Assembly (NCBI RefSeq): GCF_963675905.1
Contig: NZ_OY780936.1
Location: forward strand, 186,001 to 250,000
Direction: 5' to 3'
From: an uncultured Bacteroides sp.
Lineage (GTDB): Bacteria; Bacteroidota; Bacteroidia; Bacteroidales; Bacteroidaceae
DNA length: 64,000 bases
Part shown: one piece after another, positions 4,930 to 46,010 of the stretch
Layout of the letters: the number at the start of each line of letters is the position of its first letter
Position numbering within the stretch: position 1 is the stretch's first letter
Translations under genes and position numbers: made by a program
The notes under the pieces: generated by a model
The model's input: only the letters and a program-made list of their open reading frames with translations
Told to the model about the DNA's origin: nothing
Database searches by the model: none

Positions 4930-5031
4930 AGTCTAGCAGTCTAGCAGTAGCCATTTAATGTGCTGTGAATGAATGGAATGGAGGTGCTAGACTTCTTCAA
5001 GTAAGTCTAGCGCTAATCTAGCAGTCTAGCA
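4930..5031. repeat. Short-repeat array A, unit GTCTAGCA
   Basis: Six copies of a CTAG-centred unit (GTCTAGCA and close variants). CTAG lies at 4933, 4941, 4987 (inverted TGCTAGAC), 5007, 5018 and 5026. Copies come in close 8-bp pairs at both ends. The array sits between DUF3256 and the truncated IS3 transposase. Confidence 0.75.
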
Positions 5032-5049
5032 CTCTGTCTCGTCCTGATT

Positions 5050-5868
5050 TTGGCAGATTATGTTTTGCCTTTTAAATCAAACCTTTATCAGGTTATTACA
5101 GATGTTCGAGAGGAGGATCCCGGTATCGGCGGCGAAAAGCTATGGGTGATGTATAGTCAATACTTCGGCAAACGTTATAGAATAGGTCGTGATGCTTTTT
5201 TAAAAGTGCTCAAGCGGTACAACTTGATGCTCAAGGCACCCAGAAAAAGTTGTCGTACCACAGACTCCACCCACGACTTGCCGACCTACCCCAATCTAAT
5301 TAAGGATTTGGCTATCACCCGTTCTAACCAAGTCTGGGTTAGTGATATTACCTATATCCGCTTGCGGGAAGACGATTTCTGTTTTCTCTCCTTGGTGACA
5401 GATGCGTACGACCATGAAATCGTAGGTGCTTACGTCGGCCCTACGCTAGCCACTGTCCACACCATAGAAGCCCTTAAACAGGCTTGCAAGAAGAGAAACA
5501 TACAAAATACAGAAGGGCTGACTCATCATTCGGACCGAGGGGTGCAGTATGCCAGCTACATGTACGTAAATGAACTGAAACAAAAAGGAATAAGGATTAG
5601 TATGACGGAAAATGGAGACCCTAAAGAAAATGCAATAGCGGAAAGAGTAAATGGGATTCTCAAAAAGGAATTCCTTAACCAATATTCCTTTGAAACAATC
5701 GAACTGGTTAGACAAGCAGTGCAGCAGGCTGTCACATTCTACAATACCAAACGCCCCCATAGGAGTTTGGATATGCTTACTCCACAACAGGCTTTTGGGA
5801 AGACCGGAATGATCAAGAAACGATGGACAAGTTATAAAGATAAATACAGAGAAGCTTGCCCGCAATAA
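5050..5868 (+). CDS. IS3-family transposase OrfB, probably truncated at the 5' end
   Basis: A 272-codon frame with an HTH_21-like segment (about residues 20-60) and a complete rve integrase core. The DDE triad is visible as WVSDITYI, HHSDRGVQYAS and ENAIAERVNGILKKEF. A TTG at 5050 is the only start offered. The N-terminal DNA-binding segment that normally precedes GIGGEKLW in OrfB is short, and no orfA lies upstream, so the element looks 5'-truncated and probably immobile. The bases at 5082-5100 inside the frame recur exactly at 6091-6109, downstream of the gene. Confidence 0.8.
   Translation: MADYVLPFKSNLYQVITDVREEDPGIGGEKLWVMYSQYFGKRYRIGRDAFLKVLKRYNLMLKAPRKSCRTTDSTHDLPTYPNLIKDLAITRSNQVWVSDITYIRLREDDFCFLSLVTDAYDHEIVGAYVGPTLATVHTIEALKQACKKRNIQNTEGLTHHSDRGVQYASYMYVNELKQKGIRISMTENGDPKENAIAERVNGILKKEFLNQYSFETIELVRQAVQQAVTFYNTKRPHRSLDMLTPQQAFGKTGMIKKRWTSYKDKYREACPQ
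5082..5100 (+). repeat. Direct repeat, copy 1 (inside the transposase frame)
   Basis: The 19-mer CCTTTATCAGGTTATTACA is identical to 6091-6109. With two single-base gaps the match extends upstream to about 28-30 bp (5071-5100 against 6082-6109). Confidence 0.85.
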
Positions 5869-6090
5869 AGAGAAAAACTATCTTTGTCTTGAAAGCAAAA
5901 AAATGATTCTACTAAGAATCCGAACGAGATAGAGAGAGAAGGCTGCGGACCTCTCTTCTCGTTTAAATATTTCAAGCTAAAGAAGGCCTATCAACCACAA
6001 TTAGGGACTATAGAGAATTTAGTCAACCGAAGCTAGAGATTAAAATATAACCAGTCAACTCCAAAAAGGGGGAAGAACAAATTTAATCAA
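5869..6090. other. IS3 tail, no gene
   Basis: Non-coding sequence after the OrfB stop. It includes a purine-rich stretch, TAGTCAACCGAAG and CCAGTCAACTCC, which look like decayed IS end sequence. No intact terminal inverted repeat could be paired with anything upstream, so the borders of the element are not defined. Confidence 0.4.
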
Positions 6091-6131
6091 CCTTTATCAG
6101 GTTATTACAAACTCTTATCAGTTTATTACAA
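6091..6131 (+). repeat. Tandem pair with core TTATCAG(G/T)TTATTACA
   Basis: Two copies, with TTATCAG at 6094-6100 and 6115-6121 (pitch 21 bp), each followed by (G/T)TTATTACAAA. The first copy is part of the exact 19-mer shared with the transposase frame at 5082-5100. Confidence 0.75.
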
Positions 6132-6154
6132 AACAAACCAATAAATTCTTATTC

Positions 6155-6236
6155 CATCCGGGTGTAGGATATTGGTACACCCGGGTGTAGAGGGTCGTTA
6201 CATCCGGGTGGATGGGTGTTGTACATCCGGGTGTAC
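6155..6236. repeat. Array B, four CATCCGGGTGTA units at exact 23-bp pitch
   Basis: The CCGG cores start at 6158, 6181, 6204 and 6227, exactly 23 bp apart. The units are CATCCGGGTGTA, the perfect palindrome TACACCCGGGTGTA, TACATCCGGGTG and TACATCCGGGTGTA. The 11-bp stretches between cores are not conserved except for a final TA. The array sits in the convergent gap before the rpmE terminator. Confidence 0.85.
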
Positions 6237-6243
6237 AAGCAAT

Positions 6244-6282
6244 AAAAAAAGCTCCAATACAAAAATGTATCAGAGCTTTTTT
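6244..6282. terminator. Terminator hairpin behind rpmE, A/T-flanked on both sides
   Basis: GCTC/GAGC flanked by A-rich and T-rich tracts, with an inner ATACA/TGTAT stem. It suits termination from either strand and lies 23 bp past the rpmE stop. Confidence 0.75.
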
Positions 6283-6304
6283 ATCAGATATAATCTGAAA
6301 TATC

Positions 6305-6559
6305 TTATTTCTTGCTACGATCTCCGTAACGGTTCTTAAACTTATCAATACGACCGGCAGTATCAATCATTGTAGATTTACCAGTGTAAAAAGGGTGAGA
6401 AGTGTTAGAAATTTCAAGCTTAACCAATGGATAAGTTGCACCTTCGAATTCGATAGTTTCTTTAGTGTTGCAAGTAGATTGAGATAAAAATACATCGCCA
6501 TTAGACATATCCTTAAATACGACTGGACGATATGATTCTGGATGAATACCTTTTTTCAT
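6305..6559 (-). CDS. rpmE2: 50S ribosomal protein L31, type B
   Basis: An 84-residue protein starting [20 protein letters not shown], with [20 protein letters not shown] in the second half. This is the long, zinc-ligand-free type B form of L31 common in Bacteroidota; the CxxC motif of type A is absent. It is a single gene with its own -7 box at 6634-6641 and a hairpin terminator downstream. Confidence 0.96.
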
Positions 6560-6633
6560 TTCAGTATTTGTTTTTTAATTATTATTACTTTGTACTATTT
6601 GGTAAGAATAGTGTAATGGTCTATTTCAGAGCG

Positions 6634-6641
6634 CAAAGATA
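6634..6641 (-). promoter_or_regulatory. -7 box of rpmE
   Basis: Minus-strand TATCTTTG matches TAnnTTTG, 75 bp before the rpmE start. Confidence 0.55.
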
Positions 6642-6817
6642 ATGCTTTTCTTTAAATTGGAAAATTATTTGAGGAACTTTTTCGTATGATAATAAAATAA
6701 TGTTTGTTTTGTGTTAATTGTTAATTTTTAAAATGAAAAAACGAACCGATAATCAGATTGTAATATAACTGACAAATAAAATTAACCCTTATGGCAGATT
6801 ACTTATTGTATAATTAT

Positions 6818-6825
6818 TAACTTTG
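6818..6825 (+). promoter_or_regulatory. -7 box of the endonuclease gene
   Basis: TAACTTTG matches TAnnTTTG, about 100 bp before the ATG at 6924. Confidence 0.5.
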
Positions 6826-6923
6826 CATTCCTTAATGAGCTAAATGTCTATGAACTACTTTTTTATATACTATGAAAGGATTATATTGAAGTGTATTTAA
6901 ATTGGTCAATAAAAAACGATAGA

Positions 6924-9314
6924 ATGAGAAAAATTTTCCTGCATTTGTTAATGCAATTATTAATTGTCTGTATAGGTGGACAATTAATGGCACAGATCCC
7001 GAGTGGCTATTACACACCCGCTGTAGGGAAGAAAAAAGCAGAGTTGAAAACGGCTTTACATACCATTATTATGAATGCAACAGTGCTGAATTATGGTAGT
7101 GGAGATGGTAAAACATGGTCTGGATTTGCAAAGACAGATGTTCGTCCTGATGGAACAGTTTGGGATATGTACTCAAACAATAGGGTTCCAGTAAACGGCA
7201 ATTCTGCTGCAGCAGGAATGAATATTGAACATTCATTCCCCAAAAGCTGGTGGGGAGGTGATGAACGTCAGGCATATAGAGATCTTTATAATCTGAATCC
7301 GTCAAATAGTGTTGCTAATGAAGCAAAGAGTAATTATCCAATGGCTGTTGTTGATGGTACTGTTACATATTCAAATGGAGTGATAAAAGTTGGGAAATCA
7401 AGTAGTCGCCCTGGAAGTTTAATTGATGCCTGGGAACCTTCCGATGAATACAAAGGCGATTTTGCACGTGGATATATGTATATGGTAACATGTTATGAAG
7501 ACTATTCAACTGATTGGACTGGTACATCAGCTCTTTATGAACTGGAAAAGAATGCTTATCCTACCTTTCAGCAATGGGCTTATCAGCTTCTTTTAAAATG
7601 GAGTCAGGAAGATCCGGTTAGTGATAAAGAAATAAACAGAAACAATGCTGTTTATAAAATACAGGGAAACCGTAATCCGTTTATCGATTATCCGGATTTG
7701 GCTGAATATATTTGGGGAGCTAAGACGGAAACCGCATGGAGTGAGAGCGCTGATCCTGCTTTGTATTCACCAACAAATAATTCAACTTTGGATTTGGGGG
7801 TTACTTCAATTAGTAAAGTACTAGAGAAAGAAGTCTCTGTAAGCGGGAAAAATCTGACTGGAGATTTGGCTATAACCATTTCCGGAACCGGATTTACTGT
7901 TAATGCATCTTCTTTAACGAAAGATCAGGTGGTCGCAGGTGCAAAAATTACTGTTCAGTATACTTCTGCTTCAGCTGCAACTGCAACAGGTACACTTTCC
8001 TTATCAGGAGGCGGAGTAACTGTTTCTGTAAATCTTAAAGCTGAAGCTGTTGATGGCATACCTGTGCTTGCGGCTTCAAATGTAACTTCAAAATCATTCG
8101 TTGCTTCATGGAAAAATGTGAGCGATGCGTCAACTAAATACGACTTTAGTCTTTATCAATCGGATAAAACAACTTTGGTTAGCGGTTATCCGGTAAGTGT
8201 TGATGCTTCTTTAGAAACTCAAACTGTTACAAATCTTACACCGGATACACAGTATTATTATAAGCTTACCGGTGGTGGACTCTCTTCAAATTTTATAGGT
8301 GCAAAAACATTAGTTGCTGTACCTGCTGTAACAGCAACCTTGCAGGGTGGAAGCCTTGACTTTGTAACATCACCCAATGCTGCATCATCTGTAAAAAGCG
8401 TAACTGTTTCAACAGAATATATCAATAGTAATATTGCTGTTAAGGTTGGTACACCTTTTGAAGTGTCATTAGATCAACAAACGTGGTCAAATGCTATCAC
8501 TCTTGCTTCTGCAGGAGGAACGTTCTATGTTCGTATGGCTTCTTCTGCTGCAGGTAGTTATCAGTCAACACTATCTCTTTCATGCACTGAAATTTCAGAC
8601 GATCAGGAAATACCGGTAACTGGGGTTGCTGAGTTGGCTAAAACTTTTTTTGAGGATTTTGAAACAGGATCAAAAGGATCTTATACAACTAGTTCTGCTG
8701 ATTGTACAACTGGTAACTGGACTTTTGTGAATTCATTGTTTATGGCGGGCGAACTGAAAGATTTGAAGAATGGTACAAAATCAGCTCGTTTAAAACCTAC
8801 TGGTTCTATATACATGAACACTGATAAGCAAAATGGTGCAGGTACACTTTCTTTGCTTGCAGGAACTTTTGGTACAGATGCTGCTACTACAATTGGAATT
8901 TATTATTCTTCTGATGCAGGAACAACATGGAATACAGTAGCTGAAAATGTAGCTGTATCAAACTCATTAAAGGAATATAAGTATTCAATAAATATATCTG
9001 GTTCGATACGAATTAAAGTTGTAAATTTAACAGCTTCAAGTGGTTCTTCTCGTGTAAATGTTGATGATATCTCTATGACAGATTATACTTCAACCGCTAT
9101 TTCCAAGAATGAAATTGATTCATTCCGTTTCTATGTACAAAGTAACCAACTTGTTATTCAGAATGATAAGATTCAAAATATCAGTATCTATAACATCTCC
9201 GGGCAAATTGTATATAAGCATAAACTGAATCCGGGTGTAACTTCTGTCACACTTCCTCAAGGTATATATATACTTAATGGAGATGGAGTAGTGAAGAAGA
9301 TTATTATTAAGTAA
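6924..9314 (+). CDS. Secreted endonuclease I with C-terminal T9SS-type sorting domain
   Basis: The ATG at 6924 is chosen over an upstream in-frame ATG (6891) because it begins a clean signal peptide (MRKIFLHLLMQLLIVCIGG, cleavage after LMAQ). The first ~270 residues are an EndA/NucM-type nuclease: NIEHSFPKSWWGG carries the catalytic His, and DLYNLNPSNSVANEAKSNYP the metal-binding Asn region. The middle is Thr/Ser-rich, with Ig- or Fn3-like modules. The last ~70 residues (SIYNISGQIVYKH, LPQGIYILNGDG, VKKIIIK) match type A sorting domains of the type IX secretion system. It probably degrades extracellular DNA or RNA. It is a single gene with its own promoter and terminator. Confidence 0.9.
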   Translation: MRKIFLHLLMQLLIVCIGGQLMAQIPSGYYTPAVGKKKAELKTALHTIIMNATVLNYGSGDGKTWSGFAKTDVRPDGTVWDMYSNNRVPVNGNSAAAGMNIEHSFPKSWWGGDERQAYRDLYNLNPSNSVANEAKSNYPMAVVDGTVTYSNGVIKVGKSSSRPGSLIDAWEPSDEYKGDFARGYMYMVTCYEDYSTDWTGTSALYELEKNAYPTFQQWAYQLLLKWSQEDPVSDKEINRNNAVYKIQGNRNPFIDYPDLAEYIWGAKTETAWSESADPALYSPTNNSTLDLGVTSISKVLEKEVSVSGKNLTGDLAITISGTGFTVNASSLTKDQVVAGAKITVQYTSASAATATGTLSLSGGGVTVSVNLKAEAVDGIPVLAASNVTSKSFVASWKNVSDASTKYDFSLYQSDKTTLVSGYPVSVDASLETQTVTNLTPDTQYYYKLTGGGLSSNFIGAKTLVAVPAVTATLQGGSLDFVTSPNAASSVKSVTVSTEYINSNIAVKVGTPFEVSLDQQTWSNAITLASAGGTFYVRMASSAAGSYQSTLSLSCTEISDDQEIPVTGVAELAKTFFEDFETGSKGSYTTSSADCTTGNWTFVNSLFMAGELKDLKNGTKSARLKPTGSIYMNTDKQNGAGTLSLLAGTFGTDAATTIGIYYSSDAGTTWNTVAENVAVSNSLKEYKYSINISGSIRIKVVNLTASSGSSRVNVDDISMTDYTSTAISKNEIDSFRFYVQSNQLVIQNDKIQNISIYNISGQIVYKHKLNPGVTSVTLPQGIYILNGDGVVKKIIIK

Positions 9315-9614
9315 TAAGAGAACTGATATACTTCTTTTTAGTTTCTAGAACTATAGGGGAAAAATATATAAATAACTGTATAAGGTTAGAGAGTACTTGT
9401 TTGTCTCCTCTAACCTTATTTTATTTTTAAGCATTTCTCTTTTTGCTAATAATAAAATATTGTTGTTCTGAAATGCTTTATAGTTTTTTTAGGTATAAAT
9501 GTTCTATTAATATGCCCTTCTTTCGTTTTTTTTTAAGACTTTTGTGTATGATTGGCATATTGCCCACCTTTTATAAATTTAGTGATATATAAATATAATA
9601 AAAATAGATTTAAA
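9315..9614. other. Intergenic region with a terminator, no gene
   Basis: It holds the strong hairpin at 9380-9428. The rest is AT-rich leader for the EEP gene. A TTG-initiated extension of that gene to 9552 is possible but would spoil its signal peptide. Confidence 0.5.
9380..9428 (+). terminator. Terminator of the endonuclease gene
   Basis: A perfect 12-bp stem (9380-9391 with 9408-9419) with a 16-nt loop, followed by TTTTATTTTT. Confidence 0.85.
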
Positions 9615-10646: not shown

Positions 10647-10842
10647 AAAGGAGTTTTGATTGCTCAATAAATATTAAAGGGACAGATTCTGTTGAACTAA
10701 AATTTGCTCTTTTTGTTTTTATTGCCATATAGAGATTACAATATGATATTAATTCATAGGTAAAGAATGTTATTAGTAATGAAATATAACGTTTTATAAG
10801 ATAAAATCTTTCGCAGAACATTTTTATTCAAACTATTCTTTT

Positions 10843-10850: not shown

Positions 10851-10890
10851 CGAAGAATTTTAATTCACTAACAATAAATATTTAAAAAAC

Positions 10891-14531: not shown

Positions 14532-15335
14532 GCTACGAGTACCCATGTATTAATTAGGGTTGCTGAATAATTGCTGAAATTGAATCTATTGATGATTAAT
14601 TAGAGTTATAGTCTTTTTGAAATTACGTAGATCAATGCGATACAAATTCCGGGAAGGTGATTTCGAGAAACTATATTCCTCAAGTCCTCCAAGTATGTAT
14701 AGCATATTGTTTGCATAAAGTAATTCGCTAAACTTTAAAGACAGATCAATTTTTCATCCTTGCAAATAAATAAATGGACTGTAGCTCCTTGTTGGTGTTT
14801 CTTTTAACCATTTTGAAAATATGTTTTTACCTCATAAATTTTATGGGTGTCGTCCATTATTCTCTCTCTCATTGTTTTCTGTTACTGATTTGCTGCAACA
14901 TTTCTATGTTTTTTTTATAAGGTTGTAAAGGTAATAATTGATAACTAATAGTTATTTATATTATAATTTATAGTGATATTTGTTTTTATTAATATGTAAT
15001 TATATAAATATATAAAATGTAATATATATTATGTATTTATTTTAATATGTAATATGTTTACTGTTTTTTATGTATTACTGTTTTATCAATTTTATACTCT
15101 GATAGTCTATGTTTAATTGTTTATATGTGTGATTATATATTTATTTATATTAAAATACATGGTGTTAATTTCTTATAAGTTACCTTATGATATAATATGT
15201 GTTAAAAATATTATATTTGTTGATGTTTATATTTTATTTGTTGTATTTAATAATATATTTGTAAATAATATATATAGTGAAATGTATGCAGATATAATTT
15301 GAAATCTATTGTAATAACTAATAAAATTAATATCT
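14532..15335. other. AT-rich region, no intact gene
   Basis: About 800 bp. The first part holds a possible gene remnant on the minus strand (14586-14753). From about 14930 the sequence is extremely AT-rich, with long runs of TATA/ATAA-type text and no convincing coding frame. A 61-codon plus frame at 15117 has only low-complexity hydrophobic content and is not called. Confidence 0.5.
14586..14753 (-). pseudogene. Possible C-terminal remnant of a repeat or beta-propeller protein
   Basis: A minus-strand open frame of 56 codons bounded upstream by an in-frame TGA and without a plausible start. It reads LYANNMLYILGGLEEYSF, then NLYRIDLRNFKK, and ends in TAG. The LYILGG...LYRIDL pattern resembles blades of kelch or six-bladed propeller proteins. 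It is better protein-like text than expected here but could be chance. Confidence 0.3.
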
Positions 15336-17827: not shown

Positions 17828-17857
17828 GGTTCTTCTTCACTTTAGGTGCAAGTTATT
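17828..17857 (+). repeat. Left terminal inverted repeat of the ISL3-type element
   Basis: 30 bp starting GGTTCTTCTTCACTTTAGG. It matches the right end (19774-19803) with one mismatch and overlaps the transposase stop codon by two bases. Confidence 0.9.
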
Positions 17858-19523
17858 AGGTTTTAAACGCAATGAGTTTCACATTAAGTAGTCTATAGCT
17901 TGCCCTATTAAACATCTGCCTCTTGATTGCCTTTATTTTATTGACAGTTCCTTCCAAGAGTCCGTTGTTCAAATAAATATCCATTGCATTTTGCACCGCT
18001 TGTTGGTCTGCTTTTATTCCACAAGCAAATGCCCTCATGGTTTTTGAATCACATTCCATAGCCTGTTTTATCCAGTTTGCCAGAGACCATTGCCTGAGAT
18101 TTCCATTTATCATTTCCTTGAATCTCAATCCTAATGTTACAACCTGTTTTATTGATGGATTCTTCAATAGATCAGTAAGACTTTGCACGGCGGATTCCCC
18201 TTTCAATATAAATTTCCGTATACTCCTTATTGATGCGTGTTTTTTGTTTTTCCTTTCAGCTATATTTTTGTTATATTTCCTGACTTCCTGTTGTTCTTGC
18301 TTTATTTTGTTTCTGATTCCTATCGTGGCAGCCGAGATTGCAATCGCATCCATCTTGTCTTCCATTTTCTTCTTCAAATTCTTTATATCCGTACATCCAT
18401 GGCTGATTTCCAAAGCCAGTTCATCGACATGTTTTAATATACTCTTTTGCTGCGCAGACATATAATCCTTGCCTGTATGGTGACGTACCAAACGCCAGAT
18501 AACCTGTGAATGCACTCCTAATTGGCGGGCTGTTTCTGAAATGCTCATTCCTTTTCTGATAAGGCTATCTGCTTGCACAAACAGGTTCAGTTTATGTCGA
18601 TGTCTGGCATCCCCCAGGCCATAAAGAGCTTCCATGATTTTGGTTCTGCATTCTTCCGTGGAGGGATAAGAATAAGTTTGCTTATGCACACTTAGCCGGG
18701 ATAATGAGGCTATTTCTTCCGTCAGAGCATCCACCAGATTCTTTATCAAATGGAATCTGTCACAGATTTGGGTAACACCGGGTAGGATACGATTAATAGC
18801 TTCAACAAAGTTTCGCCCCCGGTCTCGGGTTATATATTGTATCTGAGGATTATTTCGCAAGAACTGCTCTAATTCATCCCCCTCCCGGCAAGGAAGTACT
18901 GCAATGGGACGATGGGTCATCTGGTCTACAATAACACTCCCATAGATATGCCCTTTCTTCTGTGCAAAGTCATCTATACCTATAGCCACAGGTAGAGAAT
19001 TACTACTTTTTGAGGGCAATTCCTTGTGAGCACTCCGTAGACAGGCAGATTGACTGCAGAAGATGTTCTGCCCGTGTAAAAGCTCACTGGCAGTACGGGA
19101 TGTGACTTTTAGAGATACTTCACGGATACGTTCTTCTACCTCCAGAGTGTTGCGGCCATAGGGAGAAGCCAGACAGGAATGGTCCTCACTAAAGACCTTG
19201 CGGAGACAATGCTCATTTCGGCAACGAAATTTGCGGGTTTTGACCAATAGAGTCAGGGAATGATTAAAGATCTCTGAACCCTGAAGTTGGCGTATATAGT
19301 ACCCATGTAAGCTTTGACTCAAACAACCACAGGCCGGGCAGCGGCTACTATTAGAGTTACGAGACAATTCTACAGTGTACGATTTCCCACTTATAGAGAC
19401 TCTATCCTGGCGATAATGGGGAATATGAAGTTTAAAAGATATAGTTGATTTCTTTTTGTTAACATTGATGTAAATAGGCTTATTTGTAGTAACTTTGCCA
19501 ACTGTAGATATGCTTTGATTCAT
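17856..19523 (-). CDS. ISL3-family transposase
   Basis: 555 residues, full length for the family. The N-terminal zinc-binding region has CPACGC and a second Cys pair (CRNEHC), typical of ISL3. The DDE_Tnp_ISL3 core begins at VAIGIDDFAQKKGH (first Asp), followed by ITRDRGRNF and CDRFHLIKNLV; a recombination-type HTH (ISETARQLGVHSQVIWRLV) lies in the insertion domain. The start codon sits in the loop of a potential mRNA hairpin: 19564-19577 pairs with 19504-19518. Confidence 0.93.
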   Translation of the reverse strand: MNQSISTVGKVTTNKPIYINVNKKKSTISFKLHIPHYRQDRVSISGKSYTVELSRNSNSSRCPACGCLSQSLHGYYIRQLQGSEIFNHSLTLLVKTRKFRCRNEHCLRKVFSEDHSCLASPYGRNTLEVEERIREVSLKVTSRTASELLHGQNIFCSQSACLRSAHKELPSKSSNSLPVAIGIDDFAQKKGHIYGSVIVDQMTHRPIAVLPCREGDELEQFLRNNPQIQYITRDRGRNFVEAINRILPGVTQICDRFHLIKNLVDALTEEIASLSRLSVHKQTYSYPSTEECRTKIMEALYGLGDARHRHKLNLFVQADSLIRKGMSISETARQLGVHSQVIWRLVRHHTGKDYMSAQQKSILKHVDELALEISHGCTDIKNLKKKMEDKMDAIAISAATIGIRNKIKQEQQEVRKYNKNIAERKNKKHASIRSIRKFILKGESAVQSLTDLLKNPSIKQVVTLGLRFKEMINGNLRQWSLANWIKQAMECDSKTMRAFACGIKADQQAVQNAMDIYLNNGLLEGTVNKIKAIKRQMFNRASYRLLNVKLIAFKT

Positions 19524-19773: not shown

Positions 19774-19803
19774 AATAACTTGCACCTAAAGTGACGAAGA
19801 ACC
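19774..19803 (-). repeat. Right terminal inverted repeat of the ISL3-type element
   Basis: Partner of 17828-17857 (29 of 30 bases match). Confidence 0.9.
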
Positions 19804-19827
19804 CAAAAAATATAAAATTATCTGCTT

Positions 19828-19925
19828 ATCTGCCACTAAATGCTTAAAAGTACTTACTATAAAGCTTTTTAGGTAGTGGCAGATAAAAAATCATCTGCTA
19901 CTAAATCAAATGATCTGCTACTAAA
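19828..19925. repeat. Array C1, unit ATCTGC(T/C)ACTAAA
   Basis: Units at 19828-19840 (+), 19872-19884 (inverted, TGGCAGAT side), 19893-19905 (+) and 19913-19925 (+). Start-to-start steps are 44, 21 and 20 bp, as if one slot of a ~21-bp ladder were empty. Confidence 0.8.
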
Positions 19926-20015
19926 ATCCGTACTGAAAACTGTTGTTTTTTTATTATTATCCTATACTCGTAGGTACTTACTTCGTTTGGGTTGATTCTC
20001 TAATACATTAATACA

Positions 20016-20179
20016 GGTTCTTCGTCACTTTTGGTGGAAGCAAACTGTCTCAAATGCTTATCCAATCAAGATTCTACATGCTTTTTGATAAGCCATTTAT
20101 TGACTCTGATAAAAAGCCTGCAAAATGCCATAAATAAAAGATTCAATGTAATATCTTCCACCAAAAGTGATGAAGAACC
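20016..20179. mobile_element. 164-bp MITE with ISL3-like ends
   Basis: 25-bp terminal inverted repeats (GGTTCTTCGTCACTTTTGG... and its complement, one mismatch) enclose about 114 bp without a frame. The flanking 8-mers TTAATACA (20008-20015) and TAAATACA (20180-20187) agree at 7 of 8 positions, which fits an 8-bp target duplication. The first 16 terminal bases are those of the neighbouring ISL3 element, apart from one variable position. Confidence 0.85.
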
Positions 20180-20311
20180 TAAATACACCATCTTATTATT
20201 CTCTTGTTAGAAACTGTCTTTTCTTGAAGCTGTTGTTTATGATAAATCACTCTAGAGTTATACAAAACTCTCGCCTTCTTTTTATAAAACTACTAAATTA
20301 GTTTGTGTGTT

Positions 20312-20386
20312 CTTGTACAAAAGAATATATTATTCTGTACAAAACAAATTATTCTTTTGTACAGAAGATTGAATTGTTTTGTACAA
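20312..20386. repeat. Array D, four GTAC-centred units at exact 22-bp pitch
   Basis: GTAC occurs at 20315, 20337, 20359 and 20381, each step exactly 22 bp. Orientation of the longer unit TGTACAAAA is + + - -. Unit 1 (20314-20327) is an exact 14-base complement of unit 3 (20350-20363); unit 2 pairs with unit 4 apart from one inserted base. Confidence 0.88.
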
Positions 20387-20527
20387 GATTAAATAATGGG
20401 CCCGCCTGAAAAATAAAATATTACGAGAGAGATTAAAAAATGCTCGCCGCAAGTTGATAATCATAGTCAGGTAAGATAATATTTAATTGTAAAATTAGAA
20501 TTTATATAATGCAGTATTGGCTGTGAC

Positions 20528-20585
20528 TTTAGTTTAGTAGCAGATAATTTTATCTGCTACTAAACTAAAATGATCTGCTACTAAA
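20528..20585. repeat. Array C2, unit ATCTGCTACTAAA, with a 19-bp perfect hairpin
   Basis: Units at 20533-20545 (inverted), 20552-20564 (+) and 20573-20585 (+). The first two form a perfect 19-bp inverted repeat (20528-20546 with 20551-20569, 4-nt loop). The order inverted, direct, direct at 19-21 bp steps repeats that of 19872-19925. Confidence 0.85.
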
Positions 20586-20632
20586 ACGTAACCTGATAAC
20601 CAGCCATTTATAAATTTATAGGTGGTAGTCCC

Positions 20633-20640
20633 TATATTTG
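20633..20640 (+). promoter_or_regulatory. -7 box before the IS110 transposase
   Basis: TATATTTG fits TAnnTTTG, giving a leader of about 80 nt. It is directly preceded by a TATAGG/CCTATA hairpin (20617-20636). Confidence 0.4.
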
Positions 20641-20663
20641 TAATTAATATGCAGAAGAACAAA

Positions 20664-20731
20664 GCATAAGCCAAGAGTATTAATATATTTGAGGTATCAG
20701 TCTTAAACAATTAAATACTCAAAGCTTATGC
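20664..20731 (+). promoter_or_regulatory. Hairpin covering the IS110 transposase start codon
   Basis: The arm GCATAAGC...GAGTATTAA (20664-20683) pairs with TTAAATACTC...GCTTATGC (20711-20731), interrupted by a small internal loop. The 3' arm includes the ATG at 20728-20730, so the start would be paired. In IS110 elements the non-coding end can also encode a bridge RNA; this region is a candidate. Confidence 0.55.
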
Positions 20732-21807
20732 GTACACAAAGTAACAAACTAAATTTTGAAGGAGAAAATATTTATGTTGGAATTGATGTTCATTTGAAAA
20801 GTTGGAATGTGACAATTTACACAGAATTCCTTCATCATAAAACATTCAACCAACCTCCTGTACCATCAATTTTAAGGGACTATCTGAATACTAATTTTCC
20901 TGGTGGGACTTATTATTCAGCCTATGAAGCCGGATTCTGTGGGTTTAATATTCATTTCGAACTTAAAAAGCTAAATATAAATAATATTGTGGTTAATCCA
21001 GCTGATATACCAACTAGCCAGAAAGAACATGTACTTAAGAATGATTCCCGTGATAGTATGAAAATTGCCCGTTCTTTAAGAGCTAATGAACTCGTAGGCA
21101 TACATGTCCCATTCATTGAGACATTGGAAAACCGCACATTGATACGCACTCGAGACGTAATGGTGAAAGATATGACTAGATTTAAACAACGCATAAAAGC
21201 TTTGCTTTATTTTTATGGTATATCTTACCCTCCAGAATTTGAGAAATCAACCAGTCATTGGTCCAGACGTTTTCTTAAATGGTTAAAAGAGGAGGTATCA
21301 CTTAATACAGCCAATGGAAACGATGCCTTATCATTACTTATCAGAGAAGTAGAGCAACAAAGAGTTCTTATATTGGAAATCAATAGAAAAATCCAGAATC
21401 TTGCTGTTTCTGAAAAATATGTAAAGGAGATAGAGTTAATAAGAAGCATTCCGGGAATTGGTTTGGTTACAGGGATTACTTTTTTGTCGGAGATAGAAGA
21501 TATTGAACGATTCCCAAATACAGACAAGTTAGCTGGTTTTGTAGGACTAATCCCTACCTGTCACTCCAGTGGAGAGGTGGAAAATTATGGAGAGATGACA
21601 TTTAGGAAGAAAACGACTTTAAGAAGATGGCTGATTGAAAGTGCCTGGGTTGCAGTAAGAATAGATCCGGCACTGACAAGGTGTTTCTCACAACTCTGTA
21701 AAAGGATGGAGCCTAATAAAGCTATAATACGAATCGCAAGAAAACTATTAAACAGAATGTATTATGTTTTAAAAAAGAGACAAAAATATGAATGTGGAGT
21801 GGTTTGA
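20728..21807 (+). CDS. IS110-family transposase (DEDD type)
   Basis: 359 residues. The N-terminal DEDD_Tnp_IS110 domain begins IYVGIDVHLKSWNVTI (first Asp) with YSAYEAGFCGF (Glu) and KNDSRDSMKIARSL (last Asp pair). The C-terminal transposase_20 domain has SIPGIGLVTGITFLSEI and DKLAGFVGLIPTCHSSGE with the conserved Ser region. Length is normal, so the gene is probably functional. IS110 elements lack clear terminal inverted repeats; the borders cannot be fixed here, but long non-coding flanks lie on both sides. Confidence 0.93.
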   Translation: MRTQSNKLNFEGENIYVGIDVHLKSWNVTIYTEFLHHKTFNQPPVPSILRDYLNTNFPGGTYYSAYEAGFCGFNIHFELKKLNINNIVVNPADIPTSQKEHVLKNDSRDSMKIARSLRANELVGIHVPFIETLENRTLIRTRDVMVKDMTRFKQRIKALLYFYGISYPPEFEKSTSHWSRRFLKWLKEEVSLNTANGNDALSLLIREVEQQRVLILEINRKIQNLAVSEKYVKEIELIRSIPGIGLVTGITFLSEIEDIERFPNTDKLAGFVGLIPTCHSSGEVENYGEMTFRKKTTLRRWLIESAWVAVRIDPALTRCFSQLCKRMEPNKAIIRIARKLLNRMYYVLKKRQKYECGVV

Positions 21808-22408
21808 TAATAATGCCTATATAAATATCTTTCAGAACAAGAGTGATCGCTTCTTTCATCTTGCAGCTTAGTCTGCTTTAGCAGTTTGCGGCCTCTTCCT
21901 ATTGAACTGAAAAAGGAAAATGTAGAAAACTGATAACAATATCAGTTTAAACTACTGATAGAAGGTTGTTTATATAGGAGTTATTAATAAATAGAAAATA
22001 AGAAAATAAACAATAAAGGTTTTCTTAGCCATATAGCGATATCTGTAACATAAGGGGGAAACATACAAGCCTCCCCCCAGAAAAAAATGATGTTACAGTG
22101 TAACGCAGGAAGTTTATTGCTGACAAGTTGCTCTTCAGCAGAGCTTGCTTCCTCTTCAACTACCTGATTACAAAGCTAATAAAAAGTATAAATAATATTA
22201 ATAATACTCTTGTTATTTGGATTACAACATAGAAGATAAAATGGTAATTATTTTTATCTGCTACTAGATAATGTGTTTGTAATTAATGTATTAGCCTAAA
22301 TTGGTGGCAGATGGTCGGAAATTTTGTTCGCAAAAAACTGCTGTAGCTAAATTTAGCCATTACCATCTTCATTCTTATTAGTGGAAGATTTGATGCCACG
22401 AAAGTACT
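21808..22408. other. Gene-free region behind the IS110 transposase
   Basis: It holds a 9-bp perfect hairpin (21927-21948), array F (22043-22104), a single ATCTGCTACTAG unit at 22256-22267 with an inverted relative at 22301-22312, and the palindrome GCTAAATTTAGC at 22346-22357. The first ~150 bp may be the IS110 right end. No coding frame. Confidence 0.5.
22043..22104. repeat. Array F, TGTAAC units enclosing a G5/C5 hairpin
   Basis: CTGTAACAT (22043-22051) is the perfect complement of ATGTTACAG (22090-22098), and a third copy completes the near-palindrome GTTACAGTGTAAC (22092-22104). Between them lie GGGGG and CCCCCC, which can pair. Confidence 0.6.
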
Positions 22409-29126: not shown

Positions 29127-29128
29127 TC

Positions 29129-40629: not shown

Positions 40630-41086
40630 AAAATGCTCTAATAGCTTGATTTATAATTTAGTAAATAAAATAATTGATTTTTGTAACTTATTTTATTTGA
40701 GTTTAAATGTGTGTATTTGAAAGATTGTTATATTGATTTATAAATTACATATTATTAAGTGTAATGTTGATTAATCATATTTTATATTAGATTATTGTAT
40801 AAATAGAAATTGATATAATGATTTATAGAATACTTTTATCTATTAAGCTGTTTGTTCTCTACTTTATATATTTTACTTTTAATATTCAGTATATCAATTG
40901 TATATATTCATGTTTTATAGTGAATTCTTCCTTAAAATAGGTTGTATTTAAAAATTCACTCTTGTTGTATTGGTAAATTTGTCTATCTTTTTTAAGTAAA
41001 TAGATTAAGAATATTTCTTTTATTCATTCAAATGAATTAATTTTGCAAATTATTTGAAGTGAAAAGGAAATATTGAATATAGTAAG
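40630..41086. other. AT-rich intergenic region, no gene
   Basis: About 460 bp of very AT-rich sequence without a coding frame, hairpin terminator or clear repeat. A -7 box for the next gene lies at 41038-41045. Confidence 0.5.
41038..41045 (+). promoter_or_regulatory. -7 box of the leucine-rich repeat gene
   Basis: TAATTTTG matches TAnnTTTG, 41 bp before the ATG. Confidence 0.45.
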
Positions 41087-42721
41087 ATGATTAATTTGAA
41101 ATACTTATTTGCTGTTTTGTTGCAAATATTATTTGTGTTACCACTTGGCGCACAAGTAACTAAAACGGTTTATATATCTATGCCGGGGAAATTGAGTAGC
41201 CTAATTACTCCTGAAGAACTAAAAACTGTAACTAATTTAATTTTGGTTGGTAGAATTGACCAAAAGGACTTTGAAACAATGAGAGATTGTATGCCTGTGC
41301 TTTCAAATCTTGATCTTGAGGCTACCACTGTTATTTCTAATAGTCTTGATTATAATGCAAATGTTATTCCTGGATATGCTTTTAGTAGTAATGATGGAAA
41401 TTTTAGAGGGAAAACTTCTCTTAAATCAATAAAATTACCATTCACAGTAACTTCAATTGAGTTTAGTGCTTTTTCAGGATGTACGTCATTAACCAAGGTA
41501 ACGTTTCCTTCAACTCTGAAGAATATTGGTAATTATGCTTTTGATGGTTGCGTTAATTTAACTGATGTGGTTTTTCCTGATGCGCTTTCAAGCATAGGTG
41601 ATTGTGCCTTTTATGGTTGCTCTAGTCTGACTAATATTACTCTTCCTAAATCTCTGTCAATGTTAGGTGATGATACGTTTTATGGCTGTAGTGCTGCAAC
41701 CTGTAAAATAAAGGCCACAACTCCTCCTTTTATGCACTCTGGTTCTTTGGATAAAAGAGTGGTTGCAATATATGTTCCGGATGGAGCCGGAGACCTTTAT
41801 CAGTCGGCTTTTTACTGGAATAGAAAAGCCATTGTTGAAGGCGATGGGAATGCGCTTCGTTTAAATATTGAAAAAGCCGGTACACTGGCTTCAGAAATAT
41901 TTGCTGCGGGCGTTGTTCTTAATAAGGTGAATTCCCTTATTCTGGAAGGAAAGCTGGATAAGAATGATTTTTATGTGATAAAATCTCATATGCCCAATTT
42001 GGTTTCTATTAATTTAAGTGCGGTTAAGATGCTGACTATACCAGATTCTCTCTTTATTAATAAAAAATTGTTGAATATTGATCTTCCATTGTCATTGGTT
42101 TCAATAGGAAATTGTGCCTTTAAAAATTGCAGAGGTTTGAAACAAGTTAATTTTCCGTCTACGCTAACTACCATAGGCAAAGAAGCATTTGCCGATTGTG
42201 CGTGTCTGACGAAAATCACTCTTCCGGCTAAAATTACAAAAATAAACCCTTCTGCTTTTAAAAATTGCTGCGGCATATCCGAGATTAAAAATTACAACTC
42301 CGTTCCACAGACTATATTGGATAATGTTTGGGAAGGTATAGATAGAAAAAGTTGCAAACTAATTGTGCCTGAGAATTCATCTACAGCTTATATGACAAAT
42401 AAAGTGTGGGGTCAATTTTCAGAAGTAGCAGAACAAAGAATAGAGAGCGAGTATGTTTTAATTGTCAAAAAGAATTCAGGGGGAATTGTTCTCTGTAAGA
42501 ATAATACTCTGTTGAGTGGACAAGCAATAACAGTGCCTGCCGGTGAAGTGCTTACTTTTAATATCTCACCCAAAAAAGGTTATCATATTGGAAAAGTTAT
42601 TTTTAATGATAAAGATGTTACCGGATTATTGCAAAATGGCAACTTTAAAACCAATTCGGTTAATAATTCAGCCACTTTATCTGTTCTCTTTGTGAAGGAT
42701 TTGGATGTACAGTTGGTGTAG
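41087..42721 (+). CDS. BspA-type leucine-rich repeat surface protein
   Basis: 544 residues with a signal peptide ending PLGAQ. Two blocks of LRR_5 repeats (about 100-205 and 320-410) follow the pattern FxGCxSLTxVxFPxTLxxIGxxAFxxC. The last ~80 residues (NTLLSGQAITVPAGEVLTFNISPKKGYHIGKV) look like an InlB-B/Ig-like repeat. It is likely displayed on the surface or secreted, possibly in adhesion; the ligand is unknown. No type IX tail is seen. It ends 13 bp from the convergent tRNA-Ala gene. Confidence 0.85.
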   Translation: MINLKYLFAVLLQILFVLPLGAQVTKTVYISMPGKLSSLITPEELKTVTNLILVGRIDQKDFETMRDCMPVLSNLDLEATTVISNSLDYNANVIPGYAFSSNDGNFRGKTSLKSIKLPFTVTSIEFSAFSGCTSLTKVTFPSTLKNIGNYAFDGCVNLTDVVFPDALSSIGDCAFYGCSSLTNITLPKSLSMLGDDTFYGCSAATCKIKATTPPFMHSGSLDKRVVAIYVPDGAGDLYQSAFYWNRKAIVEGDGNALRLNIEKAGTLASEIFAAGVVLNKVNSLILEGKLDKNDFYVIKSHMPNLVSINLSAVKMLTIPDSLFINKKLLNIDLPLSLVSIGNCAFKNCRGLKQVNFPSTLTTIGKEAFADCACLTKITLPAKITKINPSAFKNCCGISEIKNYNSVPQTILDNVWEGIDRKSCKLIVPENSSTAYMTNKVWGQFSEVAEQRIESEYVLIVKKNSGGIVLCKNNTLLSGQAITVPAGEVLTFNISPKKGYHIGKVIFNDKDVTGLLQNGNFKTNSVNNSATLSVLFVKDLDVQLV

Positions 42722-42733
42722 TATCCTTTCTTG

Positions 42734-42807
42734 TGGAGCATATCGGACTCGAACCGATCACCTCGACACTGCCAGTGTCGCACTCTAGCCAGATGAGCTA
42801 ATACCCC
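42734..42807 (-). tRNA. tRNA-Ala(GGC)
   Basis: 74 nt on the minus strand. Acceptor arm GGGGTAT pairs with ATGCTCC (one G-T and one T-G pair), discriminator A. D arm GCTC...GAGT, anticodon stem CGACA/TGTCG around the loop CTGGCAG (anticodon GGC), T-arm with GGTTCGAGTCC. CCA is not encoded. Confidence 0.93.
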
Positions 42808-42852
42808 ATATAATTACGGCGTGAATTTAGATATTTATTTCGAATTATAAAC

Positions 42853-42860
42853 TATCTTTG
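42853..42860 (+). promoter_or_regulatory. -7 box of the DUF4286-ruvC-pulA unit
   Basis: TATCTTTG matches TAnnTTTG, 13 bp before the ATG at 42874, so the leader is very short. Confidence 0.6.
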
Positions 42861-42873
42861 CCAAAACAATTTT

Positions 42874-43185
42874 TTGAATATGCTAGTTTATAATACTACT
42901 TACAATATTGACGAAGAAGTTTTAAGTAACTTTCTTATCTGGATAAACGAGGTTTATGTTCCTGAAACCGAAAAGAATGGGATTTTAAAGAATCACAGAT
43001 TAATGCGTGTGCTGAGTCATCGTGACGAGACAACAGAATGTTTTTCTCTGCAATGGGAAGTAGAAAGTAGTGCTTTGCTGCACCGTTGGCATACGGAAAT
43101 AGGAATCAGGCTGAATGGAGAACTAACAAAAATGTTCGGAGATAAGGTTGTGGGATTCCCTACATTACTGGAGGTAATGGAATGA
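42874..43185 (+). CDS. DUF4286-family small protein
   Basis: 103 residues, cytoplasmic, without signal or membrane segment. It reads as a small alpha/beta (dimeric alpha-beta barrel-like) protein: [45 protein letters not shown] and [15 protein letters not shown]. The function of the family is unknown. Its TGA overlaps the ruvC ATG (ATGA), so the two are translationally coupled, a linkage I recall as common in Bacteroides. Confidence 0.82.
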
Positions 43186-43748
43186 TTAAACCGGTAAAGG
43201 AAAAGATTATTCTGGGAATCGACCCAGGTACCAATCTGATGGGATATGGCGTGCTGAAAATTGTTGGCACAAAACCGGAGATGATTGCTATGGGAATAGT
43301 CGATTTGCGGAAATATAAAAATCATTATCTTAAACTGGGTCATATCTATGAACGTGTAATTGGAATTATTGATGCTTATCTTCCCGATGAGTTGGCTATT
43401 GAAGCTCCTTTCTTTGGAAAAAACGTGCAGTCTATGCTTAAACTTGGGCGTGCACAAGGTGTAGCTATGGCGGCGGCTTTAGGAAGAGATATTCCGATAA
43501 CCGAATATGCTCCGCTTAAAATTAAGATGGCTATAACCGGCAACGGTAAGGCAAGCAAAGAACAGGTTGCTGATATGTTGCAAAGAATGCTCAGAATTCC
43601 CAATGATAATATGCTTCCTTACATGGATGCTACAGATGGACTGGCTGCAGCTTATTGTCATTTTCTACAATCCGGCCGTCCTCAGCTGGATAATGCTTAT
43701 CATGGCTGGAAGGATTTTATTAGTAAGAATCCCGACAGAGTAAAATAA
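43182..43748 (+). CDS. ruvC: Holliday junction endonuclease RuvC
   Basis: 188 residues, resolving four-way DNA junctions in recombination. The catalytic acids are visible: D14 in [15 protein letters not shown]74 in [11 protein letters not shown] and the D149/D152 pair in [13 protein letters not shown]. Length is normal. It overlaps the upstream DUF4286 gene by four bases and lies 30 bp before pulA. Confidence 0.96.
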
Positions 43749-43778
43749 AGAGTGAGATATTTATAAAAAACAACCATT

Positions 43779-45773
43779 ATGAAGTTAAAATCAATTGTCC
43801 TGATGGGATTAGCTATTTTTGCAATGAGTTGTACACCGGAGAAGAGAGCCTATAAATCGTTTGACGAATATCCGGTTCCTTCGGCACCTATTAATGAGAT
43901 GGTTTACACACCTTCTCAAACAACCTTTACGCTTTGGTCTCCAACGGCCGAGCAGGTGGAATTAATGTTATTTGATTCGGGAGATGAAGGCTCGGCTTAT
44001 CAGTCGGTTACGCTCGAACCTAAGGAAGATGGTCTTTGGAGTGCTTCTGTAAACCAGAACCTTAAAGGTAAGTTCTATGCATTTAATGTGAAGATCAAAG
44101 AAAAATGGCTGGGAGAAACTCCGGGTATCATGGCTAAAGCTGTGGGATTGAACGGTAAACGAGCAGCTGTTATAGATTTGGCGGATACCAATCCACAAGG
44201 ATGGTCGTCCGATCAACGTCCCCCTTTAAAGAGTGACGCCGATATTATTCTGTATGAAATGCATAATCGTGATTTTTCGGTGGATACTACTTCGGGCATA
44301 AAGAATCAGGGGAAATTCCTGGCATTGACAGAGAAAGGTACAAAGAATACTGCTGGTGATGCAACCGGAATAGATCATTTAAAAGAGCTTGGCATTACAC
44401 ATGTGCACCTTATGCCATCGTTTGATTTTGCATCTATCGATGAATCAAATCTGAAAGCAAATAAATATAATTGGGGATACGATCCGCAAAACTATAATGT
44501 GCCCGAAGGATCTTATTCAACAAATCCCAAAGAACCGGCAGTACGTATTATTGAATTTAAAAAGATGGTACAAAGTCTGCACAAAGCTGGCATTCGTGTG
44601 GTAATGGATGTAGTTTATAATCACACTTCCAGTTTGCAAGGCAGCAATTTCGAACTGACTGTTCCAGGTTATTTCTATCGCATGAAGAAGAATGGAAAAT
44701 GGGCAAACGGTTCAGGATGTGGTAATGAAACGGCTTCCGAAAGAGGAATGATGCGTAAGTTCATGATTGAATCGGTTGTTTACTGGGCAACGGAATACCA
44801 TGTTGACGGATTTCGGTTCGATTTAATGGGAATTCACGATATTGAAACCATGAACCAGATACGTGCAGCTCTGGATAAAGTTGACCCTAGCATCTATATT
44901 TACGGTGAAGGATGGGCTGCCGAACAACCTCAGTTGCCAAAAGAAAAACTGGCTATGAAGGAAAACATTACTAAGATGCCGCGTATTGCAGCTTTTAGTG
45001 ATGAACTTCGCGACGGTCTTCGTGGACCTTTCAATGATGATAAGAAAGGTGGTTTCATGACAGGTATTTCTCGCAAAGAAATGAGTGTGAAGTTTGGTTT
45101 GGTAGGAGCCATCAAGCATCCGCAGATACTGAATGATTCTGTTAATTACAGTAAAGCTCCATGGACTTTGCAACCCACTCAGATGATTAGCTATGTAAGC
45201 TGCCACGACGATATGTGTTTGGTAGACCGAATAAAATCATGTATGCCAGATGCTTCTCCTGCAGTTATTGCCGCCATTGATAAACTAGCTGTTACGGCCG
45301 TGTTTACTTCTCAAGGTGTACCGTTTATATATGCCGGTGAAGAAATTATGAGGGATAAGAAAATGGTGCATAACAGCTTTGAAAGCCCCGATGCTGTAAA
45401 TGCAATAAACTGGAATAATAAGACGCTTTATAAGGATGTTTTTGATTATTACAAAGGACTTATTGCCATGCGCAAAGCACATCCGGCCTTCCACATGGGA
45501 AATGCTGACTTAGTTCGTAAAAACATGGAGTTCCTTCCGGTTGCCGGAAGCAATCTTATTGTTTTCCGCTTAAAGGGATATAGTAACGGTGATAGCTGGG
45601 ATGATATTTATGTAGCATTGAATGGAGACAGAGCTCCCCGTAAGTTTGCAGTTGAACCGGGTAAATATACTGTTGTATGCAAGAATGGAACAATTAATCA
45701 ATACGGCTTAGGAACGATGTACGGCGGAGAAGTTTATGTTCCCGGACTTTCTGCGCTGATATTCCATAAATAG
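43779..45773 (+). CDS. pulA: Type I pullulanase, lipoprotein
   Basis: 664 residues. A lipoprotein signal ends FAMSC (Cys 18). A CBM48-type N-terminal domain (about 30-140) has TTFTLWSPTAEQVELMLFD. The GH13 barrel follows: HVHLMPSFDFA with NWGYDPQNYN (the type I pullulanase motif), VVMDVVYNHT, VDGFRFDLMG (nucleophile D348), YIYGEGWA (acid/base E377) and VSCHDDM. It cleaves alpha-1,6 links in pullulan, starch or glycogen fragments, anchored in an envelope membrane. It follows ruvC by 30 bp and ends in a strong terminator. Confidence 0.94.
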   Translation: MKLKSIVLMGLAIFAMSCTPEKRAYKSFDEYPVPSAPINEMVYTPSQTTFTLWSPTAEQVELMLFDSGDEGSAYQSVTLEPKEDGLWSASVNQNLKGKFYAFNVKIKEKWLGETPGIMAKAVGLNGKRAAVIDLADTNPQGWSSDQRPPLKSDADIILYEMHNRDFSVDTTSGIKNQGKFLALTEKGTKNTAGDATGIDHLKELGITHVHLMPSFDFASIDESNLKANKYNWGYDPQNYNVPEGSYSTNPKEPAVRIIEFKKMVQSLHKAGIRVVMDVVYNHTSSLQGSNFELTVPGYFYRMKKNGKWANGSGCGNETASERGMMRKFMIESVVYWATEYHVDGFRFDLMGIHDIETMNQIRAALDKVDPSIYIYGEGWAAEQPQLPKEKLAMKENITKMPRIAAFSDELRDGLRGPFNDDKKGGFMTGISRKEMSVKFGLVGAIKHPQILNDSVNYSKAPWTLQPTQMISYVSCHDDMCLVDRIKSCMPDASPAVIAAIDKLAVTAVFTSQGVPFIYAGEEIMRDKKMVHNSFESPDAVNAINWNNKTLYKDVFDYYKGLIAMRKAHPAFHMGNADLVRKNMEFLPVAGSNLIVFRLKGYSNGDSWDDIYVALNGDRAPRKFAVEPGKYTVVCKNGTINQYGLGTMYGGEVYVPGLSALIFHK

Positions 45774-45807
45774 ACTCTTTTAGAATAATCATTGCAATAA
45801 TAGATAG

Positions 45808-45843
45808 AAATAGGAGACTGCGAAAACAGTCTCCTATTTTTTT
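45808..45843 (+). terminator. Terminator of pulA
   Basis: A perfect 13-bp stem (AAATAGGAGACTG / CAGTCTCCTATTT) with a 6-nt loop and a T-run to 45843. Confidence 0.92.
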
Positions 45844-45937
45844 ATTCCATATTATGGAAGTAATATATGCTACAAAAAGGCTTAGGTAATATATGGCCTA
45901 ATTTAAACAAGCGCCTCAGATTATAATATTTTAATAG

Positions 45938-46010
45938 AGTACAGCTAAATATAATAAGTAGTACAGTTTAATTATATAAGCTGTACACCTTTTATAATTT
46001 AGCTGTACTT
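45938..46010. repeat. Array E, four GTAC-centred units at exact 22-bp pitch
   Basis: GTAC occurs at 45939, 45961, 45983 and 46005, each step exactly 22 bp. The longer unit GTACAG(C/T)TAAAT is oriented + + - -; unit 1 (AGTACAGCTAAATATAA) and unit 4 form an inverted pair with one inserted base. Confidence 0.88.

Follow-up and report, generated by a model that had tools for sequence, protein, structure and literature searches.

What are the compact clusters of short repeats that lie between genes in this 64,000-nucleotide stretch of an uncultured Bacteroides sp. (the window; bases 186001-250000 of the single-contig genome G000 of 4,166,832 bases), and is there a protein that reads them? An earlier note on the same letters had placed clusters at 4.93, 6.16, 19.83, 20.31, 20.53 and 45.94 kb, plus a weaker one at 22.04 kb, and had described them as one class of locus-specific arrays, each with its own motif and all confined to gaps between convergent genes. 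The first six clusters do exist, but they do not form a single class: three are palindrome arrays, and the remainder belong to two other kinds of dispersed repeat. The palindrome arrays fall into families of exact geometry that are dispersed over the chromosome, keep their positions between species and are linked in the genome to genes for HU-HIG proteins (PF18291, HU/IHF superfamily). We suggest, with a probability of about 0.72, that the three true arrays of the window are operators and dispersed binding sites of these site-specific paralogs of HU.

A motif-blind scan, which scores four palindromic units at a constant pitch of 18-28 bp and is controlled by ten dinucleotide shuffles of the window, finds three significant arrays, at 6153 (score 25.9, pitch 23), 20310 (19.5, pitch 22) and 45934 (15.4, pitch 22). 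An AT-rich call at 15186 scores 13.6 and equals the top of the shuffles (13.6). The arrays, compared with the related genomes G149 and G121 (B. luti), are the following.

6153..6235, no strand: CCGGG-family array from the scan, four TACAYCCGGGTGTA units in steps of exactly 23 bp; G149 and B. luti have the same four units in the orthologous position.
20311..20388, no strand: TGTACA-family array from the scan, four TGTACA cores (20314, 20336, 20358, 20380) in steps of exactly 22 bp; orthologous copy in G149, none in the B. luti stretch read.
45938..46010, no strand: GTAC array from the scan with different half-sites (AAGCTGTACACCTT-like), four cores in 22-bp steps; four units in register in G149, where one core is changed, and in B. 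luti.

The earlier description of about four copies spaced by two helical turns thus holds for these three, but not for the clusters at 4.93, 19.83 and 20.53 kb, which receive no score as four-unit palindromic arrays in the same scan. The repeats of the first are 8 and 85 bp apart, and the other two consist of a non-palindromic unit with a step of 20-21 bp; far from having a motif each, they have ATCTGCYACTAAA in common. The 22.04 kb item obtains no array score either.

Nor are the motifs specific to their loci. The 20.31 kb motif TTCTTTTGTACA has 111 exact matches in the genome against 1 in the control, the motif of the 6.16 kb array 74 against 2 (at most one mismatch, both strands of a near-palindrome being counted), ATCTGCYACTAAA 43 exact matches in 4.17 Mb against 0 for the reversed motif, and the GTCTAGC motif of the 4.93 kb cluster 26 against 0 (at most two mismatches). 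Families of arrays were counted in G000 stretches that had mostly been fetched around motif matches. Four GTAC cores at exactly 22 bp are present in 54 arrays in 1.25 Mb, with the 45.94 kb array counted in; among 56 chains, in the stretches then examined, with three or more GTAC-type cores, 53 have four units, and 166 of 167 steps measure 22 bp. The CCGGG family comprises 14 arrays (four units in 13, three in one; 41/41 steps of 23 bp), and the GATGTACATC family 13 arrays at 23 bp, of which twelve have four units and one was scored as having five. The shuffle control that the earlier note had proposed speaks for the arrays as well, since 400 kb fetched regardless of arrays contain nine that score at least 15 and the shuffles none. 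With 18-28 bp allowed, the pitches of these nine are 21 (two), 22 (four), 23 (two) and 24 bp (one, non-palindromic).

But which protein would recognize one geometry in unrelated motifs? The link was first seen through relatives of the HU-like gene of a GTCTAGC-flanked cassette that is described below: HU-HIG genes begin just after a CCGGG array at 815689 and a TGTACA array at 1207085. The PF18291 profile has 20 matches in G000, 19 of them above the curated cut-off (the C-type HU-HIG protein reaches 89.8 bits against a cut-off of 26.2) and two without an open reading frame (ORF); the model also matches ordinary HU genes in control genomes. Ten HU-HIG genes of this genome (L145, L146, L151, L153-L159) have an array at most ~70 bp from the start codon, with TGTACA, CCGGG, GACCCGGGTC, GATGTACATC, GACCTGCGCAGGTC, GGTCGCGACC, AACATGTACATGTT (two genes, three units), a CTAG-centred motif (L146) or a CGGCCG-centred motif at 22 bp (L145, whose HU-HIG part is fused to a winged helix-turn-helix). 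The arrays of L145 and L146 are the weakest of the ten, and these and that of L158 were fully detected by the score-based detector; the 45.94 kb array of the window resembles, by eye, that of L146. Upstream arrays are present at none of five near-identical 141-aa genes (L147-L150, L152) and none of three plain HU genes (L161-L163) of G000, and no HU-HIG gene scanned in this genome has an array downstream.

The association extends to other genomes. At loci of relatives chosen by protein similarity (14 loci of other Bacteroidales found with one HU-HIG subgroup protein, and loci found with the L151 protein; array threshold z >= 5), an upstream array is present at 25 of 35 HU-HIG ORFs as opposed to 3 of 123 other ORFs, and the three exceptions are divergent neighbours in the same gap as a HU-HIG gene. 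In a set of 72 distinct HU-HIG genes, in which the G000 genes behind the rule and one gene located by pattern are counted, 44 have an array, with pitches of 21 (4), 22 (18) or 23 bp (22) where 20-25 bp were allowed. The sequence TAnnTTTG, which we take to be the Bacteroides -7 motif, occurs within 60 bp before the array at 20 of these 44 genes against 2.2 expected, and the array therefore usually lies between promoter and gene. As a check on prediction, the motif upstream of L156 was searched in the genome; it has 98 matches per strand against 32 in the control (at most three mismatches) and led to the third dispersed family, that of the GATGTACATC arrays. In G036, moreover, a TGTACA array detected by pattern alone stands 46 bp before a HU-HIG gene. 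HU-HIG paralogs that adjoin arrays of differing motif and one geometry thus lend weight to the earlier proposal that the common spacing is read by a protein. HU-HIG is reportedly named in a paper of 2017; a search of the open literature, with subscription literature mostly outside its scope, yielded no paper that assigns DNA targets to HU-HIG or describes its link to arrays.

We propose that families of four short palindromes 22-23 bp, or two helical turns, apart are binding sites of HU-HIG proteins. The founding array would often be kept between the promoter and the start codon of the HU-HIG gene, where bound protein would block transcription and thereby establish autoregulation, and four dimers, being in phase, would bend or wrap ~90 bp of DNA within a single plane. 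The dispersed copies would be chromosomal sites at which the same HU-HIG complex forms. Judged by position, phasing and the homology to IHF and HU, the HU-HIG protein probably binds the array, represses its own gene and wraps DNA; that the dispersed copies serve local architecture, or act as roadblocks in gaps other than divergent promoters, is a guess.

How do the arrays lie with respect to genes? Among 81 arrays of the three families in the G000 stretches examined, with genes taken from simple ORF-based calls, 21 are in convergent, 41 in co-directional and 7 in divergent gaps, 3 lie within short ORFs and 9 are unclassifiable at stretch ends. Confinement to convergent gaps, which can be upheld in the window if insertion sequences are ignored, does therefore not hold for the genome. 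In the comparison of gap types for which the earlier note had called, divergent gaps are clearly depleted (7/69 classified arrays against 33% of gap length, p = 7e-6), and the convergent excess is marginal (21/69 against 21%, p = 0.05). Insulation or termination between convergent genes, one of the roles then considered, is not borne out, as 41/69 arrays lie in co-directional gaps. In such gaps 15 of 26 TGTACA arrays are closer to the 3' end of the upstream gene than to the start of the next, a proportion that also rules out a strict 3'-end location. That divergent promoters are avoided would be expected of tolerated repeats as well as of elements whose role lies elsewhere than at promoters.

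When orthologous gaps are compared, as had also been suggested, G149 and B. luti have the 4.93, 6.16 and 45.94 kb elements in the same positions as the window. In six pairs defined by gene orthology the arrays are free of gaps, and identity amounts to 140/144 in cores, 323/342 in other array bases and 969/1056 in flanks, cores being conserved above flanks (p = 0.018). This check left out the GATGTACATC array at 1466816 and the CCGGG array of the window under its adjoining-flank rule; for the TGTACA array at 206314 a single flank could be matched, and for many loci the sole match was one short repeat flank. At G000 2984395, compared with L315, two TGTACA cores are separated by 16 bp that in the other species read as the exact reverse complement, and such inversion would explain mixed orientations of units.

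The triple-TGTACA pattern is found in 13 of 151 genomes, with 125 matches per strand in G000, 125 in B. luti and 116 in G149; the AAAGAAT-flanked type is abundant there, and other TGTACA motifs are counted in. An orthologue of L151 (97-100% identity) is present in these three genomes alone among the 151, the next best match having 36%. A single HU-HIG query matched 121 of the 151, plain HU and distant paralogs included. In G068 (2.5 Mb, 84% complete; L257-L261) four-unit GGTGTACACC arrays at 22 bp, with flanks unlike those of the window's TGTACA type, account for 170 pattern matches, and G074 has 15 of a CTTGTACAAG type; some upstream array at z >= 5 is seen in 11 of the 31 rows for HU-like ORFs in these two genomes. 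Among viral contigs, 33 stretches with the pattern encode no HU-HIG relative of the subgroup searched.

Several results weigh against HU-HIG proteins as readers of the arrays. No scored array was found at 28 of the 72 HU-HIG genes, among them the five near-identical ones of G000, and the TTATTGGCCAATAA family, two arrays at 21 bp (G000 3594750 and 3813158), is without a known cognate gene. Likewise, no HU-HIG gene found in G068 (84% complete) or G074 carries arrays of the GGTGTACACC or CTTGTACAAG type. The dispersed copies may be inert. Part of the conservation, moreover, reflects the choice of loci: 17 of 20 TGTACA loci from G149 and G121 have both flanks orthologous to a G000 array in the stretches examined (L304 has one flank, L300 and L312 have no clear orthologue), a rate biased upward because most of these stretches were selected around an array. 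For 11 G000 arrays that served as anchors there are 14 pairs; all four cores are kept in 13 (312/312 core bases identical) and exactly one 22-bp unit is lost in the other, a conservation inflated by the use of cores to find both sides. Finally, in the six gene-orthology pairs cores do not differ significantly from the rest of the array (p = 0.24).

The most serious alternative starts from the three remaining clusters, which look like end-type repeats that elsewhere flank cassettes with an array and genes for VapE (a primase-helicase-like protein) and/or HU-HIG.

4925..5040, plus strand: GTCTAGC element, a dispersed repeat with doublets 85 bp apart; orthologous copy in G149 and B. luti.
19826..19925, plus strand: ATCTGCYACTAAA cluster, an end-type repeat with a hairpin and, at 20 bp, direct repeats; alignable to G149 over window 19799-20015.
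20533..20585, plus strand: ATCTGCYACTAAA cluster, an end-type repeat with units at 19-21 bp, seen in the sequence.

In one GTCTAGC cassette (815458-818424) doublets at 815458/815543 on the plus and 818324/818409 on the minus strand enclose a CCGGG array, a HU-HIG gene and a 693-aa VapE protein, and in a ATCTGCYACTAAA cassette (2425918-2428617) the ends 2425918-2425972 (plus) and 2428527-2428617 (minus) surround a 701-aa VapE protein. Inverted copies at both ends, as in a transposon, are thus found elsewhere, but the two ATCTGCYACTAAA clusters of the window are not an inverted pair. The GTCTAGC cassette is at one place in all three species compared, and for that reason no empty site is seen. 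Arrays of 22 bp centred on CGGCCG lie near ATCTGCYACTAAA ends, for example at 1427129, 1708598, 2054453, 2428210, 2547701, 2625283, 3377255 and 4068011, an association that is not an unbiased count because the stretches were fetched around ATCTGCYACTAAA ends. In B. luti (L329, 11130-13997) a second GTCTAGC end pair adjoins the HU-HIG/VapE cassette, together with an additional gene and a repeat of the VapE 3' end. We infer that several families travel or travelled in cassettes of the order end repeat, array, HU-HIG or VapE gene, end repeat.

The arrays could accordingly be selfish or formerly mobile short repeats of a REP- or MITE-like kind (MITE, miniature inverted-repeat transposable element; REP, repetitive extragenic palindrome), spread in cassettes and as their deletion derivatives, with HU-HIG as cargo and the dispersed copies idle. 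To this we give slightly less than even odds. Apart from the GTCTAGC cassette with its CCGGG array, HU-HIG and VapE genes, it draws on the 4 of 17 GTCTAGC loci with a CCGGG array no more than 500 bp away (0.06 expected for uniform, 0.46 for purely intergenic placement), on the homology that extends 300-650 bp past the array at some TGTACA loci, and on the depletion of divergent gaps that tolerated insertions would produce. It is also favoured by the internal pattern of the 54 TGTACA arrays. The fourth base of their six inner half-sites is a patterned G or C, with CGGCGG (12) and its mirror GGCGGC (11) dominating; the half-sites that face each other across the array centre (R2/L3) are discordant in 44 and concordant in 6 of 50, those symmetric about an inner unit agree in 41/51 (R1/L3) and 40/51, and polarity is unrelated to gene strand (9 vs 7 and 5 vs 4). 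The pattern is explained if a single polar ancestor was copied in both orientations, but not by a conserved whole-array hairpin. However, GATGTACATC arrays share roughly the array alone, arrays keep their place between species, and four units at exact pitch recur in unrelated motifs that adjoin HU-HIG genes in many genera. Selfish origin explains spread and can be compatible with protein binding.

It is unlikely, in our view, that the array is primarily an iteron-like origin of the VapE cassettes, with HU-HIG as origin binder, VapE as the primase-helicase loaded there and dispersed copies as relics. Iterons of ~22 bp in few copies are a known replicon design, an array is the neighbour of the VapE gene at 816232 (by way of HU-HIG), at 2108281 and at 1833641 (array and HU-HIG both on its far side), and one lies between the VapE gene at 2425968 and the right end repeat. 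Against this, no VapE gene is present in the neighbourhoods read around L151, L153, L154 and L156, all of which have arrays.

Even less probable are long RNA hairpins that act as bidirectional terminators at gene ends. By eye, some arrays could fold as hairpins and several have terminator-like hairpins nearby, and divergent gaps are avoided; but the R2/L3 concordance of 6/50, the lack of relation between polarity and gene strand, the 41/69 arrays between co-directional genes and the absence of Rfam matches at the arrays do not suit such a role. An intrinsic terminator with kept RNA pairing is thus rejected; a hairpin centred on an inner unit may still form, R1/L3 being concordant in 41/51. The Rfam search of the window matched a tRNA only.

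Chance or independent birth at each site, for which the low complexity of AT-rich gaps alone could be adduced, can be dismissed for these families in view of the whole-genome motif counts and the nine arrays against none in shuffles, and repeated local birth, another proposal of the earlier note, is unlikely because family members share their motif, to which TGTACA arrays add common flanks and an asymmetric half-site pattern, and because they occupy orthologous positions in sister species.

Mobile elements are also present in the gaps of the window. Insertion sequences crowd those named by the earlier note: an IS3-type ORF (5050-5868), an ISL3-type transposase (17856-19523) and an IS110-type transposase (20728-21807).

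5102..6107, plus strand: IS3-type insertion (rve ORF 5050-5868) between the GTCTAGC element and the CCGGG array; neither G149 nor B. luti has it in the corresponding position.

Near-identical IS3-type copies lie ~20-25 bp from five CCGGG arrays (window 5102-6107; G000 2017178, 2778211, 3457767 and 3766735), and the arrays may be insertion hot spots for them. At 20015-20180 there is a 166-bp element with 26-bp near-perfect inverted ends that match nearby ISL3-type ends; it is not at that place in G149. The IS110-type gene (20728-22107 region) is followed by inverted sequence, the weak 22.04 kb array of the earlier note, which is possibly the non-coding end of the element. Window 20464-22404 is unmatched in the G149 and B. 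luti stretches read, except for a 54-bp partial match. Beside the DUF4831 gene of B. luti (L325), the gap that holds the window's TGTACA array contains a AACATGTACATGTT array and HU-HIG-like sequence.

How do the arrays compare with known systems? The nearest published object, as far as the available passages of its description go, is BrickBuilt, a 23-nt minisatellite/MITE of Porphyromonas gingivalis, whose smallest copy, BrickBuilt_14, is 84 nt long, as would be a 23-bp array of four units, and precedes PGN_0872, which belongs to the DNA-binding proteins of PF00216 (HU family) (PMC4596501). Both are dispersed in gaps of a Bacteroidales chromosome, but BrickBuilt has from 1 to ~23 tandem units and leader and tail terminal inverted repeats, and these passages draw no link to HU genes (PMC4596501). 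Compared by description rather than by sequence, it possibly belongs to the same class. The P. gingivalis HU protein PG0121 prefers a nearby 77-bp inverted repeat over a non-specific 77-mer and in this is similar; that target, however, is one structural inverted repeat and not a phased array, and is not dispersed as far as the passages at hand go (PMC3969353).

REP/BIME sequences (BIME, bacterial interspersed mosaic element) are likewise dispersed extragenic palindromes with insertion sequences alongside (PMC1525189, in the parts available), just as only 3 of our 81 arrays fall inside short ORF calls and IS3 copies accompany five CCGGG arrays. The arrays differ from them in being strictly four-unit and phased, with several families and motifs tied to HU-HIG genes. 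A REP system with its RAYT transposase was rejected: G000 has no match to PF01797 (Y1, TnpA-REP) in a search that was positive in 5 of 14 control genomes. With IHF and HU (DNABII) there is kinship of fold, as the HU-HIG profile matches IHF and HU structure chains with E down to 7e-11. IHF is a site-specific DNA bender with single, asymmetric sites, whereas HU-HIG has many paralogs per genome and palindromic arrays upstream.

A wider picture, which we offer tentatively and hold to be rather doubtful, is one of multi-channel chromosome addressing in Bacteroidales: HU-derived proteins with private palindrome codes of four phased sites would regulate themselves and mark tens of positions, channels would arise and spread on VapE cassettes whose internal array is both operator and origin, and BrickBuilt would be one such channel. 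HU-HIG proteins are widespread in Bacteroidaceae, and a rule by which the probable target is read beside each gene would make them testable candidates for site-specific architectural proteins. The rule would supply a partner for unexplained repeats such as BrickBuilt, and it would make available, within the HU fold, a series of protein-DNA codes that diverge in nature.

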